A stretch of DNA of 64,000 bases from Cyanobacteria bacterium RM1_2_2 (GTDB lineage: Bacteria; Cyanobacteriota; Cyanobacteriia; Elainellales; Elainellaceae): contig JAAUQT010000002.1 in the NCBI GenBank assembly GCA_012033495.1, forward strand, positions 16,658 through 80,657, written 5' to 3'. This document shows positions 8,610 to 16,071 of this stretch, piece after piece. How positions within the stretch are numbered: the first letter of the stretch is position 1; each line of letters opens with the position of its first letter. The notes beneath the pieces are model-generated. The model ran no database searches, was not told the DNA's origin, and saw only the letters and a program-made list of their open reading frames with translations. The translations under genes were made by a program, and so were the position numbers.

Positions 8610-10556
8610 TCAAAACACGAGATCAAGCCCCAGCAAGCGTAGATCCAAACTATACAGGCTGCCCGTTGCTCCATCCCAAGTCGCCAAAAGTAAGCCATGA
8701 GGTTGAACTGGAGTCATCGCCACAATCGGGGCTGGGCTAGTCGTTGCGCCAATTAAACGTCCAGCTTGATCAAGAAAAACAATTTGTCCTTGAGACTCGG
8801 CTACAATGTAGCCCCAAACGGTGGTTGCCAAAAATTGAGGCGTGCTATCAACCCAGAGCCTTCTGACTCGGTAGGGTTTGAGGTCGATCAACAGCACCGT
8901 TCCAGATTGCTCTTCGTCGGTTGCCAAAAGTTGATAGGGGGTAGAGGTTAAGACCATCTGCCGCAGCCGCAGCGCGACCCACAGAGACCCTAACGGATTG
9001 CCGCGCCGATTCATGATTTGAATTTGAGTTCCAGTTGTTTCTTCTCCACTTGAATGGAGGGATGCCGTTGAAGCAACTCCTGCCGTCACGATAGCAAAAT
9101 GCCGGTCATCTAGCGCCAATAAATGAGTTGTCTGTCCATCTTGCTGATTACCATTGTTGTGCTGATCGAGCGGAATAGATGCCGCCAATTGAAACCCTTG
9201 TCTACCCAAAAGCCTCAGAAACTTTAGACATCTGCCTTCGCTAGAGGTTGGAAGGGGCAACCTCACCAGCCAGCGTCCGGTTGGATCGATGGTGGTCAAG
9301 CAGTCTTCTGCCCACGCGGCAAGGGGCGCTAATCGAGTAGGCTGTCTAATCTGACCCACCTCCTCTGTCCCGGAGGTCAACACTCCAACAGAGCGACGGG
9401 TAACGACATAGCAGCCGTGAGGACGGATTAGCAAATGTTCGACTGGCTCTGAGGTGGCTGCAATTTGCACCGAGGGTTGTTTGCCTTGGGTCGGAATCAA
9501 CCAATCCGCGTGATAAGTCTGCTGCCATAGGTGGTGCTGGGTAGCTTGCAGTAGACGAACCGTCTCAAACGGTGCGGTGACTGACTCAGAATCATTTTCT
9601 AAACAGAATGCAGTGGCAACCAATTTAGGCGTTACGGCCAAAGCGGTGATTTGCTGATGGACAATCTCTTGGTGTTGAGGTTGAAAAGGACATTCGGTGA
9701 GATCGGTTGTTGCTAAAAAGTAGGGCTGCGCGAGCGGAATTTGGGAGCCTGTTGCTGCCGTTCCAGCGACCGCACGAATCTCAGCTAGCATTTCTCCGGC
9801 TGAGTGAAACCGCCGGGCCGGTAACTTTTGCAGCGCTCGCATAATGATGGGTCGCCACGCCACCGGAATGGCCGCAGGAAGCTGAACGGGCACATTCAAA
9901 TGAGCCGACATCAGTTCAGCAGGCGTACCGGAAAAAGGGCGATATCCGGCGATTAACTCAAACAGGAGAATTCCAACCGAATACAAATCAGAGCCAACGG
10001 AATACTGCCCATAAAACCGTTCCGGAGCCATGTATGCAGGCGATCCCACAGGTCCATCCTGCTGAGACATTTCTTGGCTGAGCCGAGCAATGCCGAAATC
10101 AGAGATGCAAGCTGTCCAGCCTTTAGCGTGAACATGCAGCAAAATATTTTCTGGCTTGATGTCGCAGTGCACAATTCCACGCTGATGAGCTTGTTCTAAC
10201 CCAGCCAACACATCTGCTACTAACCGAATGCTATGGGGCAAACTTGGACGGATTTCCTCCGTGAGCAGATTCCGCAAAGTCCCACCTTCGCAGTAGTCCA
10301 TCACGAGGTAACGACCTGTTGGAGTATGTTCCAAGGATTGAAACGTCACGATATTAGGATGTTGGAGGCTCAGCAAAAATCGCAGTTCGCGTAGAAACTT
10401 ATGGGTAGGGAAGCGATCCTGTTCTAGATTTTTGAGGGCTACCAAACGCCCAGTTTGCCGATGGATGGCACAAAAGACTTGCCCAAACTGACCCTGTCCA
10501 ATTAGCCCCAGGAGTCGATATTTGGAACGTTTTGGCTCACCTAGATGTTGCGGCAC
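8610..10556 (-). CDS. Ser/Thr protein kinase (SpkG-like) with C-terminal repeat/propeller-like region
   Basis: IVHCDIKPENILLH, CISDFGIARLS, GSPAYMAPERF; last gene of an slr0144-slr0152-like cluster. Confidence 0.88.
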   Translation of the reverse strand: MPQHLGEPKRSKYRLLGLIGQGQFGQVFCAIHRQTGRLVALKNLEQDRFPTHKFLRELRFLLSLQHPNIVTFQSLEHTPTGRYLVMDYCEGGTLRNLLTEEIRPSLPHSIRLVADVLAGLEQAHQRGIVHCDIKPENILLHVHAKGWTACISDFGIARLSQEMSQQDGPVGSPAYMAPERFYGQYSVGSDLYSVGILLFELIAGYRPFSGTPAELMSAHLNVPVQLPAAIPVAWRPIIMRALQKLPARRFHSAGEMLAEIRAVAGTAATGSQIPLAQPYFLATTDLTECPFQPQHQEIVHQQITALAVTPKLVATAFCLENDSESVTAPFETVRLLQATQHHLWQQTYHADWLIPTQGKQPSVQIAATSEPVEHLLIRPHGCYVVTRRSVGVLTSGTEEVGQIRQPTRLAPLAAWAEDCLTTIDPTGRWLVRLPLPTSSEGRCLKFLRLLGRQGFQLAASIPLDQHNNGNQQDGQTTHLLALDDRHFAIVTAGVASTASLHSSGEETTGTQIQIMNRRGNPLGSLWVALRLRQMVLTSTPYQLLATDEEQSGTVLLIDLKPYRVRRLWVDSTPQFLATTVWGYIVAESQGQIVFLDQAGRLIGATTSPAPIVAMTPVQPHGLLLATWDGATGSLYSLDLRLLGLDLVF

Positions 10557-10583: not shown

Positions 10584-11237
10584 TTAAGCACAAAGCTGCT
10601 GCATAATTGCATCGTGATCGAGGTTGAGCACCATCGTTTCTATTGGTTCAAGCCGTTTAGGAAGACCCAGCAAAAAGCGGTTACAGTCTGCTCCCATCGA
10701 TTCGCAAGAGGTTTGAATGCAACCAAGTTCTTTGCCTGTTAATTGGCTGAAGAAAGAGGCTAGAATGCCTGCCTCTAGATGGCAAGCAGGCTGATTGTGT
10801 TGGGGTGCCAGACGCGCAAAGGCAGAGTTTTGAATTTTTACGATTAAAAAACCACGCTGTTGATAGGTCTGATCCATTTCAATTTTGCCCCATCCATGCG
10901 CCATCCAGCATTCTTGCAGGGCTTGAATGAATTCAACCATCGGCATATCAGCCAACGGCAGGCTGTAGTAGCCAGTAACTTGCTCGCAGAAGCGGGTGTA
11001 GAAACTTTTGCCCCACCACTTGCCGCAGTTGAACAACACCAGCCGATTTGCCTGTCCGGTCTCTTTATATAAGCCGGAATAGATTGCTTGAATTAAGGTT
11101 TCTGGAACGGCGAGTAGCCGATCGCCTTGGCGATTTTCGAGTAGCCCGACTTCTAAGTCCCCCCGCACATATACATCAGGGGTGAAGAAATTGCCCGGAA
11201 TTCGGTTGTTGACGAGAAGATCAGCGACGGAAATCAT
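10584..11237 (-). CDS. V4R (4-vinyl reductase-like) domain protein, Slr0144-like
   Basis: C-terminal ...ACHLEAGILASFFSQLTGKELGCIQTSCESMGADCNRFLLG, typical V4R motif; paralogous to 12520-13200. Confidence 0.8.
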   Translation of the reverse strand: MISVADLLVNNRIPGNFFTPDVYVRGDLEVGLLENRQGDRLLAVPETLIQAIYSGLYKETGQANRLVLFNCGKWWGKSFYTRFCEQVTGYYSLPLADMPMVEFIQALQECWMAHGWGKIEMDQTYQQRGFLIVKIQNSAFARLAPQHNQPACHLEAGILASFFSQLTGKELGCIQTSCESMGADCNRFLLGLPKRLEPIETMVLNLDHDAIMQQLCA

Positions 11238-11488: not shown

Positions 11489-11980
11489 TTAGTGGCTGAC
11501 GACCATCTGTGGAGTAGATGATTGCGACAGTAAGGCTTCTTGAGCCAATGACAAACTAGGGCTTAGATAGCTTAACTGTTTTGCGGTAAGCATTTTAGAC
11601 AACTGCTGATTCAGCAATCGATAGAGCTTCGCATCAATTGCTTTGGTGTCATACACTTTTGCTAAGGGGCTAACCCAAGCCAAAAACCGCCGTTCAACCA
11701 GGCTTTCGTCGTTCACCAGTAAGCTGAGGGCACAGTAGCGCAACATCAACAGTGCGTTTTTAAGACAACGTTCCAGGGTTTCCTCTGATTCTTGCGGTGA
11801 GGCTGCTTCTAGTTGATCAGCCACCGCTTGCACGATTTCCAATTCTCGATCGCGCAGGCTGCGGTATGCATCCAACCGTTCTGGCATGGAAGCGACATAC
11901 TGGCTGATGAGCTTCAACTCTTCGGGTTTGAGGTAGCGATTTTCCGCCTCATCAAAGACGGCTGCAATTTGAGGGTGCAT
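11489..11980 (-). CDS. Phycobiliprotein-fold-like protein (cluster paralogue A)
   Basis: CLKNALLMLRYCALSLLVND aligns without gaps to the phycobiliprotein CxRDxxYYLRxxxYxxxxGD segment. Confidence 0.6.
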   Translation of the reverse strand: MHPQIAAVFDEAENRYLKPEELKLISQYVASMPERLDAYRSLRDRELEIVQAVADQLEAASPQESEETLERCLKNALLMLRYCALSLLVNDESLVERRFLAWVSPLAKVYDTKAIDAKLYRLLNQQLSKMLTAKQLSYLSPSLSLAQEALLSQSSTPQMVVSH

Positions 11981-12223
11981 AAGCGGATGAAATGGGTAAA
12001 TGAGTAAAGAGGAAATGCCCAGAAATCAGTTTCTTTTAGCCCAATGAATCCCCCATGGAATTCGGAATGACGGAGTTGAATAGTCGTATCCGTCGGTAGG
12101 GGTTGGTGGGTTGCCTCATTTTGAGAATTGGCAGCGGGCTGGACTAGCAAGCCTTGGCTAAAACAAGTCAGTTAAAACAAATTGGTTAAACCAAATCAGT
12201 CCAAATCAGTCCAAATAAACCAG

Positions 12224-12523
12224 TCAAAACAAGTCGGTAAATTCTTCTAACGTGAGGGCATCGTCGGCTTCAGCAGATGCGACTGAGGGCGGTTTGAGCG
12301 GAACCGCTGCATCGCCTTCCCAGTTGATGGTGCTAAAAAACTGGCTGACCGTGAGCAGCAGGGGCGAGTGAGACTCGTTGCGAGCAGCTAGCCGCAAGGT
12401 TTGGATCTCTGGCGGATGGTCGTCCCAGTTGATGGCATTAAAAAACTGCTGTACTGTTTGCCTCAGCCAAGCTTGCGGGGGATGGGCACTTGAGCCATTT
12501 TTAGGCAATGTTGCTTGAGTCAT
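12224..12523 (-). CDS. Small cluster protein with internal two-fold repeat, Slr0145-like
   Basis: VQQFFNAINWDDHPP and VSQFFSTINWEGDAA; 4-nt ATGA overlap with the preceding V4R ORF. Confidence 0.7.
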   Translation of the reverse strand: MTQATLPKNGSSAHPPQAWLRQTVQQFFNAINWDDHPPEIQTLRLAARNESHSPLLLTVSQFFSTINWEGDAAVPLKPPSVASAEADDALTLEEFTDLF

Positions 12524-13200
12524 CGCAAGATTTCTCCAGACCGTAAGCGCTTCTCAATGTCGCGGGCAGTGGCTCCTTCATTCATCCAAAAGGCAGCAGC
12601 ATCAATCCGATCTTGCCCGCCGATCAAGAATTTGCAGTAGGTTTCGCCCATTGAGTAACATTGGATTTCAATGCAGCTTAGCTGTTTTTTGACCAACTCT
12701 GTAAAAAAGCCAGCAAACAGTCCGGCGTAGAGGTAGCAAACGGGCTTACCAACATCGCCTAGAGTACGCGCCACAGCAGAGTCAAAAATATTGATAAACA
12801 TGAAGCCCTGCTTGCGGTCGCCCATGTCAATTTCCCAGCGCCCCCAGCCCTGAGCCGTGAAGGGCCACCACCAAGTTTCGAGCAAGAATAATAGGTTGGT
12901 TTGCCGCATACTGCGCTCAAACTCTTTCTCAAACCAGTTTTCAAAGAAGAAGGCATCTTTTAAGCCCCACTCGCAGCCGATCGTGTACATTGTGGCAGCA
13001 GAGGCATCCCCTACTTCTTCTTGCAGCCCTTCAACCAAGCCAATAATAAAATCTTCGGTGGTGAGGATGTTCTGACCTTGGTTCCAGTCCAGAATGGTTC
13101 CTTTGTCGGGGTCAAACTGGAAAAAATCACGGAAGCCGTAGTGGTTGTGCTTTTTAGGATGTTTGCGTTTGACTGAATTTTGTGCAGTTGCAATTACCAT
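12520..13200 (-). CDS. V4R domain protein, Slr0147-like
   Basis: VCYLYAGLFAGFFTELVKKQLSCIEIQCYSMGETYCKFLIGG. Confidence 0.82.
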   Translation of the reverse strand: MVIATAQNSVKRKHPKKHNHYGFRDFFQFDPDKGTILDWNQGQNILTTEDFIIGLVEGLQEEVGDASAATMYTIGCEWGLKDAFFFENWFEKEFERSMRQTNLLFLLETWWWPFTAQGWGRWEIDMGDRKQGFMFINIFDSAVARTLGDVGKPVCYLYAGLFAGFFTELVKKQLSCIEIQCYSMGETYCKFLIGGQDRIDAAAFWMNEGATARDIEKRLRSGEILR

Positions 13201-13314
13201 AATTGATCCTTCGTTGATTCTGGTGACAGATGCTAGTTACAGAGGGGTTGAAAAAAGGGGTTGAAAAAAAACAAAGCCTTGCTGCAATTGCAGGTCATGA
13301 CAGCCCGTAGGCTG

Positions 13315-13791
13315 CTAGGTGAGGGTTCCCAAGGTGCGACGGCTCAATTCCAAAAGAGGACACACTAAATTAGCTTGTGGAGCCGTCAGCGACTGTTTCA
13401 CGACTTCTTGGAGCACTTGATAGGTTAAGTTGCAACTGCGCTGGGCGCCAAATGCTCGCATGATGGTTTGAAACCAGAGCAACAGCCGTTCCCGAAATGT
13501 CTCGGTATCATCCATGAGGACAGCAACAGCAACGTAACGCATGACTCGCAGAGTATCACGCTTCCACTTCGCGCTGAGGTCGTCTCCCCCATGGCTGAAC
13601 ACACTCGGATCGATGGAGCGCATTTTGGTATAGGTTTGCTGAACGAGGGTTGTTTCTAACTCTTGAAGTCTCTGATAAGTCTGAACACGCAAGTTGAAGG
13701 AGCGCACATAGTCGATAGCAAAGGTCAATTCAGCATCGCTGGCGTAGCGACCGTCGATTTCACGGGTGAGGCGTTCAAGCTGGCTCAACAT
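13315..13791 (-). CDS. Phycobiliprotein-fold-like protein (cluster paralogue B)
   Basis: WKRDTLRVMRYVAVAVLMDDTETFRERLLLWFQTIMRAFG aligns to the bilin-site helix of allophycocyanin-type proteins; Cys replaced by Trp. Confidence 0.6.
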   Translation of the reverse strand: MLSQLERLTREIDGRYASDAELTFAIDYVRSFNLRVQTYQRLQELETTLVQQTYTKMRSIDPSVFSHGGDDLSAKWKRDTLRVMRYVAVAVLMDDTETFRERLLLWFQTIMRAFGAQRSCNLTYQVLQEVVKQSLTAPQANLVCPLLELSRRTLGTLT

Positions 13792-14263: not shown

Positions 14264-14749
14264 CTAAACATCACTGCTGCGGGAAAAGAATTCACCAAAG
14301 TTAAGATTAGTGCTTTTCTCAATCTGTTTCAGCATCGAGCGGGTAATCAGCTTGCCTTCTTCGACCAGCACTTGCCCTGTGATCGGATGCAGGAGATTTT
14401 GCTCAGCCCGGCGTCCAATTAAGGCTTCGATGTCTTGAATGGAGTTAATGTACATACCGGGCGGCAGTTCCACCACCACACCGTTAGAGACGACCCTGGC
14501 CTGACAGGCCAGCCGCGAATTATTCTGGCAGGAAGTAATGACTTCTAGGGTTCTTTGCTCTCGACGGTTGATGGGGGTCAGAGCTGCCATGCCATCTTTA
14601 ACATAGACATGGCAGGTAGCACACATTCCCCGACCACCGCATTCTCGCAGTACATCTAGATCTTTCGAGATCAAGACAGATAATAAATTGCCATTCGTTT
14701 CGACGGCTGTTTCTTGGGCAATCGGTTCTAGCCGCACGATCTTCACCAT
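14264..14749 (-). CDS. 2Fe-2S ferredoxin, Slr0148-like
   Basis: CGGRGMCATCHVYV...SRLACQARV (CX5CX2C...C). Confidence 0.85.
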   Translation of the reverse strand: MVKIVRLEPIAQETAVETNGNLLSVLISKDLDVLRECGGRGMCATCHVYVKDGMAALTPINRREQRTLEVITSCQNNSRLACQARVVSNGVVVELPPGMYINSIQDIEALIGRRAEQNLLHPITGQVLVEEGKLITRSMLKQIEKSTNLNFGEFFSRSSDV

Positions 14750-15054: not shown

Positions 15055-16071
15055 TTAATCAACTGAGCGAGGTGGCTGAAATAAGATCGCTTTTTGCTGT
15101 TCGGTCAAGACTTGCTGCGCGATTTTAGTGAAATCTCGGATGACCTTAGAACATCGTTCCATGAAAGCTGCAACCCACACTTGAAGCCATCTATGCTGTT
15201 CGGGCGTTAGACTGGGAAGAGGCTGAGAAGGATTTTCCACTGAGAAGGTCATCTGAGTTGAGCGCTCGATCTGAAAGTGATTGAGCCAATCAATTGCAGG
15301 ACGAGTAGACTTCCAATAGTTCGCAACTACCAGAGTTCCCAAATATTGGGTGGTTAGCTGATTGAGCGCATTAACTGCTGCCAGCACATCTTTCATGTCT
15401 ATAGACAGATCTGGCGGCAGGTCTACAAGATGCGAGGCTGAAGCAGCAATCTGGGATGGATTGAGTTGCTCCTCCGGCAAGGCAATCGGTGGATGAGCTG
15501 AGGGTGAGGTCGCTTGGAATGGAGTGGGCTGTTTGTGGATAGGCACGACCTGCACAGTTTCAGTCTTAGCTTTGGTTTCAGTCTTAGCTTTGTGCAGATT
15601 AGCGGGTTGATGATTTGGCGACTCATCTGCTGGTGCAGAGGGTTGTGCAGGTTCGAGGACGGGTTTTGAATTTTGCTGTACGGGTTGCCAAACCAGAGGA
15701 ATTTGGGCGGCAATGGCTTGAAAAGCGGTAATTGGATCTCCTTGATCAAGCTGCAACTCTAAGAGCACCCGCCTCACAGCTTGCGTATAGGTCGCTTGGG
15801 GTAGGGTGTTGCCAGTGAGCACCAGCAGGGTAATACCTCGATTCAATTTGTGTAGGTAAATGCGGTAGAAGTCGAACTGAAACTCGAAGGAATTGAAGCC
15901 GTCTGGTGTGGTTTCGAGGACTTGCTGAATGCCCTGCGCAATTGCCTTTTGTTGAGAAGCGTCAAAATTAGCACCGAACCCGTGAAAATAGGGACGAGAT
16001 AGCCCATCAATGAGAGCAATGCCCGCAATTCCTGGTACAGTCAAAAAATCCTGAATAACCTCCTGTTTCAT
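15055..16071 (-). CDS. Hypothetical protein, roadblock/LC7-like N-terminus; first gene of the cluster
   Basis: MKQEVIQDFLTVPGIAGIALIDGLSRPYFHGFG...; co-directional with the V4R cluster. Confidence 0.55.
   Translation of the reverse strand: MKQEVIQDFLTVPGIAGIALIDGLSRPYFHGFGANFDASQQKAIAQGIQQVLETTPDGFNSFEFQFDFYRIYLHKLNRGITLLVLTGNTLPQATYTQAVRRVLLELQLDQGDPITAFQAIAAQIPLVWQPVQQNSKPVLEPAQPSAPADESPNHQPANLHKAKTETKAKTETVQVVPIHKQPTPFQATSPSAHPPIALPEEQLNPSQIAASASHLVDLPPDLSIDMKDVLAAVNALNQLTTQYLGTLVVANYWKSTRPAIDWLNHFQIERSTQMTFSVENPSQPLPSLTPEQHRWLQVWVAAFMERCSKVIRDFTKIAQQVLTEQQKAILFQPPRSVD

Follow-up and report, generated by a model that had tools for sequence, protein, structure and literature searches.

As listed below in the order of transcription, eight genes on the minus strand of the window (the whole stretch of DNA that was analysed, 64,000 nt from Cyanobacteria bacterium RM1_2_2) form a cluster that includes two phycobiliprotein-like proteins, called WKRD and CLKN here after the residues at their bilin-attachment motif. 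The former is a bilin biosynthesis-associated globin (BBAG), a group of which Slr0149 has been named as a member (PMC10151467).

15055 to 16071, minus strand: ORF of 338 aa, first gene of the conserved cluster, from a family without assignment and without Pfam or NCBIfam match
14264 to 14749, minus strand: 2Fe-2S ferredoxin-like protein, Slr0148/Fd5-like (Fer2, PF00111, E=5.7e-9), kept in the cluster
13315 to 13791, minus strand: Slr0149-like cyanobacterial BBAG of the W-type (WKRD), 158 aa (PF00502, E=4.5e-21; AlphaFold2; tree)
12520 to 13200, minus strand: V4R-domain protein, Slr0144-like (PF02830, E=2.7e-22)
12224 to 12523, minus strand: ORF of 99 aa, Slr0145-like, conserved at the same position in most clusters
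11489 to 11980, minus strand: Slr0146-like phycobiliprotein-fold protein (CLKN), 163 aa (PF00502, E=4.4e-12; AlphaFold2; motif columns)
10584 to 11237, minus strand: V4R-domain protein, Slr0147-like (PF02830, E=3.9e-18), conserved
8610 to 10556, minus strand: Ser/Thr protein kinase (PF00069, E=2.3e-50), SpkG/Slr0152-like by position

Transcription runs from the 338-aa ORF through the genes for the Fe-S protein, WKRD, a V4R protein, the 99-aa ORF, CLKN and the second V4R protein to the kinase gene, and the start of the 99-aa ORF (12224-12523) overlaps the stop codon of the V4R gene upstream of it. In many cyanobacterial clusters the 338-aa ORF adjoins the Fe-S gene, and in most of those compared the kinase gene lies downstream of the V4R gene. 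The first-pass annotation had described the two phycobiliprotein-like ORFs as both matching the spacing of the bilin-site motif. Both lie where it placed them, on the minus strand at 11980-11489 (163 aa) and 13791-13315 (158 aa). It gave the motif strings CLKNALLMLRYCALSLLVND and WKRDTLRVMRYVAVAVLMDD exactly, and the motifs are in register, the family alignment placing C/W, K/R and N/D in the same columns. The neighbours it had named, two V4R proteins, a ferredoxin and a kinase, agree with the Pfam matches; the strand and the conserved ORFs of 99 and 338 aa did not figure in it. By eye, the N-terminal half of the 338-aa protein (15055-16071) looks roadblock/LC7-like. The Slr0144-like V4R protein (12520-13200) is unusually conserved for a protein with no assigned role, with a mean column identity of 66% over 12 diverse cyanobacterial loci and invariant Cys residues in the V4R domain among these loci.

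The locus is a pap operon of the slr0144-slr0152 type, reportedly described for Synechocystis sp. PCC 6803 by Wegener et al. 2008, and at the same time the cyanobacterial BBAG operon; WKRD is the orthologue of Slr0149, and CLKN that of Slr0146. The pap-type gene set (Fe-S, two V4R and phycobiliprotein-like proteins) is present in a single cluster. Compared with the Synechocystis operon, with its gene order as given in the literature, the set of genes is the same (Fe-S protein, two V4R proteins, two phycobiliprotein-like proteins, small ORF and kinase) and the local order slr0144-145-146-147 is identical, whereas the genes for the Fe-S protein and for Slr0149 precede that for Slr0144 in the window and follow that for Slr0147 in Synechocystis. 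Unlike in Synechocystis, a 338-aa ORF precedes the Fe-S and Slr0149 genes in the window. When genome contigs were scanned with an alignment of Slr0144-like proteins, 80 loci were obtained, with no Synechocystis among them. The block of V4R, small ORF, Slr0146 and V4R genes was intact in most of these 80 loci, and the Slr0149 gene was adjacent in about half. Clear Slr0146-like orthologues occurred in 144/242 sampled genomes of the class, and Slr0149-like ones in 152/242.

In Synechocystis, slr0144-slr0152 encode V4R proteins, phycobiliprotein-like proteins, the ferredoxin Fd5 and the kinase SpkG, and their products, named Pap, have been tied to the assembly of photosystems II (PSII) and I (PSI) (PMC4853703, PMC9145668, PMC12382314). 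A role in PSII/PSI assembly or repair has been reported from Synechocystis only, and the identity of the operon supports the photosystem-assembly context that the first-pass annotation had suggested (PMC4853703, PMC9145668). Interactions among Slr0144-Slr0149, which are reported to be located at the thylakoid, were validated by affinity purification-mass spectrometry (AP-MS) with Slr0149-GFP (PMC9880817), and SpkG (Slr0152) takes part in the phosphorylation of Fd5, according to a passage in PMC7860145 that cites Angeleri 2018.

According to Rockwell et al. 2023, the cyanobacterial cluster descends from clusters of non-photosynthetic bacteria, in which genes for pre-PcyA bilin reductases and heme oxygenase accompany those for V4R pairs and for the globins termed BBAGs; BBAG-1, -2 and -3 of other bacteria bind bilins, and the role of the cyanobacterial BBAGs was left open (PMC10151467). 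The window holds a globin of the phycobiliprotein superfamily that falls outside the antenna proteins and is clustered with a V4R pair and an Fe-S protein. The BBAG trait C-x-R-D is absent from this Slr0149-like protein, which reads W-K-R-D; since C-x-R-D occurs in only some cyanobacterial BBAGs (PMC10151467), it is no required BBAG feature. The cluster resembles those of the BBAGs in joining a globin to an Fe-S protein and two V4R proteins, and in that the globin clade is distinct from the light-harvesting phycobiliproteins (PMC10151467), and differs from them in that a conserved Trp replaces the attaching Cys and in having no heme oxygenase or bilin reductase. Antenna genes and a single gene for a ferredoxin-dependent bilin reductase do occur in the genome, on contigs other than that of the window. 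The window holds another member of a known cluster with known globins.

A phycobiliprotein fold had been proposed for both proteins, with structure prediction as the check. This prediction was run, and both AlphaFold2 models adopt the fold, in agreement with the PF00502 matches (4.4e-12 and 4.5e-21), which are well outside what chance would give. The model of the Slr0149-like protein (pLDDT 94.9, built on 53 orthologues) matched phycobiliproteins in a Foldseek search of the PDB, with allophycocyanin-type chains first and TM scores up to 0.86; that of the Slr0146-like protein (pLDDT 92.7, 55 orthologues) also matched phycobiliproteins, with allophycocyanin on top at a TM score of about 0.72. 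The two families are homologous to each other (profile comparison: probability 99.9%, E 1.8e-31). With allophycocyanin and other phycobiliproteins (PF00502), the pair shares the fold (TM about 0.7-0.86), an Asp13-like acid, an Arg at motif position +9 and the register of the bilin helix. It differs from them in the absence of the light-harvesting attachment motif Cys-x-Arg-Asp from both proteins, in the absence of an antenna gene context, in a deletion of 4 or 8 residues before the motif, and in a nearly invariant Trp at position 106 (Slr0149) and 102 (Slr0146).

Among 110 Slr0149-like sequences the attaching position is occupied by Trp in 75, Cys in 33, Phe in 1 and Ser in 1, and the Asp of C-x-R-D (Asp79) is invariant (110/110). 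The Arg is present in 85/108 of the Trp and Cys forms. The W-types, of which the protein in the window is a typical example, share the signature K-W-x-R-D-T-x-R and a new Cys120, and K-W-x-x-D-T can be read in 71/75 of them. K75, T80 and R82 are found in 74/75, 71/75 and 68/75 W-types, respectively, compared to 3/33 C-types for K75 and 1/33 for T80, with mostly other residues at position 82, and Cys120 in 72/75 W-types versus 6/33 C-types. When all positions of the protein are compared, W- and C-types differ most clearly at 76, 82, 80, 116, 107 and 75, and Cys120 also belongs to this set: W-types have K75, W76, T80, R82, F107, A116 and C120 where C-types have I/V, C, M/R, a variable residue, Y/L, D/Y and A. 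In an ungapped alignment to an antenna protein from the motif onward, positions 75, 76, 80, 82, 107, 116 and 120 correspond to phycocyanin-beta 81, 82, 86, 88, 113, 122 and 126, most of which probably line the bilin pocket. A usable literature source on pocket residues was not found; for interface residues, Asp13 is documented (PMC4553884).

In the tree, most Trp forms group together and the Cys forms include deep-branching families; two Cys pairs are nested inside the Trp group (L055 with L097, and L107 with L113). The best tree requires six Trp/Cys changes, at least two of them on well-supported branches, and tests for correlated change could draw on only two Trp/Cys contrasts that were both independent and well supported, not enough to reach significance. 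BBAG-1 and BBAG-3 (PMC10151467), together with the position of the deep families in a tree without inferred root, support Cys as the ancestral state of the attaching position. In genomes of one family (f26: L199-L202, L205 and L206), two C-x-R-D Slr0149-like genes lie adjacent in tandem, and in L205 this pair is downstream of a V4R gene.

The Slr0146 family presents another picture at the motif. Its members are without the Asp of C-x-R-D, and what is conserved is Lys or Arg at position +2 (59 K and 11 R among 81 sequences) and Asn at position +3 (52 of the 81). The stretch from Tyr39 to the motif, which covers the bilin in phycobiliproteins, measures 33 residues in Slr0146-like proteins (88/98) and 37 in Slr0149-like proteins (105/110). 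An ApcF-like antenna protein encoded in the same genome has 41, so that Slr0146-like proteins have lost eight residues from the loop that precedes the motif. To judge from these columns, the canonical bilin site has been lost in the Slr0146 lineage. Tyr16 is kept in both families, as are an acidic residue at position 13 (D/E13 in 107/110 Slr0149-like and E/D13 in 93/98 Slr0146-like sequences) and the Arg at motif +9 (R85 in 105/109 and R81 in 97/98). In the alpha subunit, Asp13 has an important role in the alpha-beta dimer (PMC4553884). Because the acid at residue 13 and the +9 Arg are kept in both families, an alpha/beta-like Slr0146-Slr0149 heterodimer is credible and, with the AP-MS of Slr0149-GFP (PMC9880817), plausible.

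Beyond the homology, fold, gene order and family-wide motif patterns documented above, the following course of events may be envisaged. The ancestral globin of the cluster, with C-x-R-D, would have bound a bilin covalently and by self-assembly. Its gene would then have been duplicated; one copy, Slr0146, would have shed the Asp and some of the loop ahead of the motif to become a pigment-free partner, and in most cyanobacteria the other, Slr0149, would have exchanged Cys for Trp within a coordinated change that kept the tetrapyrrole-contacting Asp. W-type Slr0149 would most likely hold a bilin or another tetrapyrrole non-covalently, and C-types would hold it covalently. Slr0149 and Slr0146 probably pair by way of an alpha/beta interface of the phycobiliprotein kind, and at the thylakoid the pair may cooperate with both V4R proteins and the Fe-S protein in photosystem assembly and repair, while the kinase possibly controls this module of globins, V4R and Fe-S proteins. 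A bilin-handling origin for this module finds support in a cluster from a member of the Cyanobacteriota outside the photosynthetic class (G258), with the order Fe-S, V4R, 270-aa ORF, globin, V4R, heme oxygenase and kinase. By its position, the 270-aa ORF of this cluster (L254 6187-6996) was a candidate for a bilin reductase, and it was not assigned as one, having no support in Pfam, NCBIfam or the PDB. In the same cluster (L254:1596-8762) the globin has the motif VSRD, and a nearby protein of 291 aa looks like two tandem globin-like domains.

Taken as a whole, a pap/BBAG operon in which W-type Slr0149 holds a tetrapyrrole non-covalently next to a pigment-free Slr0146 partner is the best explanation we can offer, at slightly below an even chance. 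The more specific proposal we put forward only tentatively, as possible but rather unlikely: most cyanobacterial Slr0149 proteins might constitute a separate class of the phycobiliprotein fold, in which the covalent bilin site was rebuilt by coordinated changes (Cys-to-Trp and the new Cys120) for non-covalent binding, in the course of photosystem assembly, of a different tetrapyrrole such as a chlorophyll precursor; now and then the Cys form would have returned. If W-types do bind a non-bilin tetrapyrrole, the phycobiliprotein fold would be linked to pigment delivery and not to light harvesting. For the role of the pap operon and of the cyanobacterial BBAGs, the split into W- and C-types offers a concrete handle, consisting of few co-changing positions, an invariant Asp and a partner, Slr0146, with a visibly lost site; the nested Cys forms allow paired ligand-binding comparisons between close relatives. 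The Trp-type signature, the loss of the Slr0146 site and the statistics on a split site are not described in the literature found, supplements (including the BBAG alignment of PMC10151467) aside, and we claim no priority for them. Some points count against the best explanation. W-types do not always keep the Arg of C-x-R-D (55/75), the lining of the pocket by the switching positions depends on an ungapped alignment to an antenna protein and on general features of phycocyanin structure, and some work suggests that the PSII phenotypes arise from the adjacent genes slr0150-slr0152 (PMC10151467).

The strongest rival is that both globins are pigment-free structural adaptors, the fold having been kept for dimerisation and docking within a complex for photosystem assembly, with the old bilin cavity filled by Trp76. 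The lack of the Asp and of part of the loop in Slr0146, the bulky Trp in place of Cys in Slr0149 of most lineages and the protein complex found by AP-MS (PMC9880817) all fit this explanation. The invariant Asp argues against it, as Asp79 in 110/110 sequences and the Arg in 55/75 W-types would be unexpected for a merely filled pocket, and Cys reappears in lineages nested among the W-types, which points to continued selection on the site for a ligand. On balance we judge the adaptor explanation unlikely, although it deserves serious weight. Covalent attachment of a bilin by W-type Slr0149 at the new thiol Cys120 instead of Cys76 would be in keeping with the distribution of this residue between W- and C-types and with its correspondence to phycocyanin-beta 126 in the ungapped alignment. 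It is improbable, however, since Cys120 is also present in several C-types and could be structural or redox active, and we know of no lyase or chemistry for this position.

The first-pass annotation had read the two proteins as carrying complementary halves of the bilin-attachment motif, Cys in one and Arg-Asp in the other; taken literally, they would make up one bilin site that needs both. The window pair itself fits this reading, and Cys in Slr0146 occurs together with Trp in Slr0149 in 9/82 genomes in which both proteins could be read; Ser with Trp, however, occurs in 37/82, and these genomes are not independent samples. The reading fails in the family alignments. Whether the Cys position varies had been raised as a check, and in the Slr0146 family it does, with Ser in 53, Ala in 14, Cys in 12, Val in 10 and Gly in 6 of 98 sequences; the Cys of the window protein thus appears to be one of several small residues allowed there. 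In the Slr0149 family, R-D is not tied to the loss of Cys: 33/110 sequences read C-x-(R/Q/Y)-D. A genome of the window's own genus (G003) has Cys in both proteins, and in many of the deep-branching genomes Slr0149 has a complete C-x-R-D where Slr0146 has Val, Ala or Ser. In addition, a single helix within one subunit supplies Cys, Arg and Asp in the phycobiliprotein fold. The alignments of 98 and 110 sequences and the 82-genome table exclude a conserved split site, and for the window pair we consider it very improbable. Least credible of all is that both proteins are light-harvesting antenna subunits (ApcA/ApcD-like): apart from the distant similarity to allophycocyanin and the annotation of some Acaryochloris homologues as apcA (PMC6002478), it is contradicted by the NCBIfam antenna-subunit models (21-23 bits for ApcA against a cut-off of 270, and about 20 bits for ApcA/ApcB against 228-270), by the tree, where the antenna proteins group in a clade of their own, apart from the Slr0149 rows (branches are long and support is only local), by the full antenna genes elsewhere in the same genome and by groups with antenna genes and no pap-type cluster (PMC10151467). 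The cut-offs and the tree rule this identity out, and the non-antenna character assumed in the first-pass annotation is supported by the separation from the antenna proteins in the tree and by the literature (PMC10151467).

BBAG-like genes were also seen away from the pap cluster. In several genomes the gene of a separate BBAG-like paralogue immediately precedes one for a short CpcG-like linker (PF00427, 124-133 bits), namely in L213 (2204-3486), L214, L215, L256 and L259, with the motif CKYD in L213-L215. Another genome, G058, carries a second, smaller cluster besides its pap genes (L258:1437-6157), composed of an Fe-S protein, V4R-A, a single BBAG and V4R-B.
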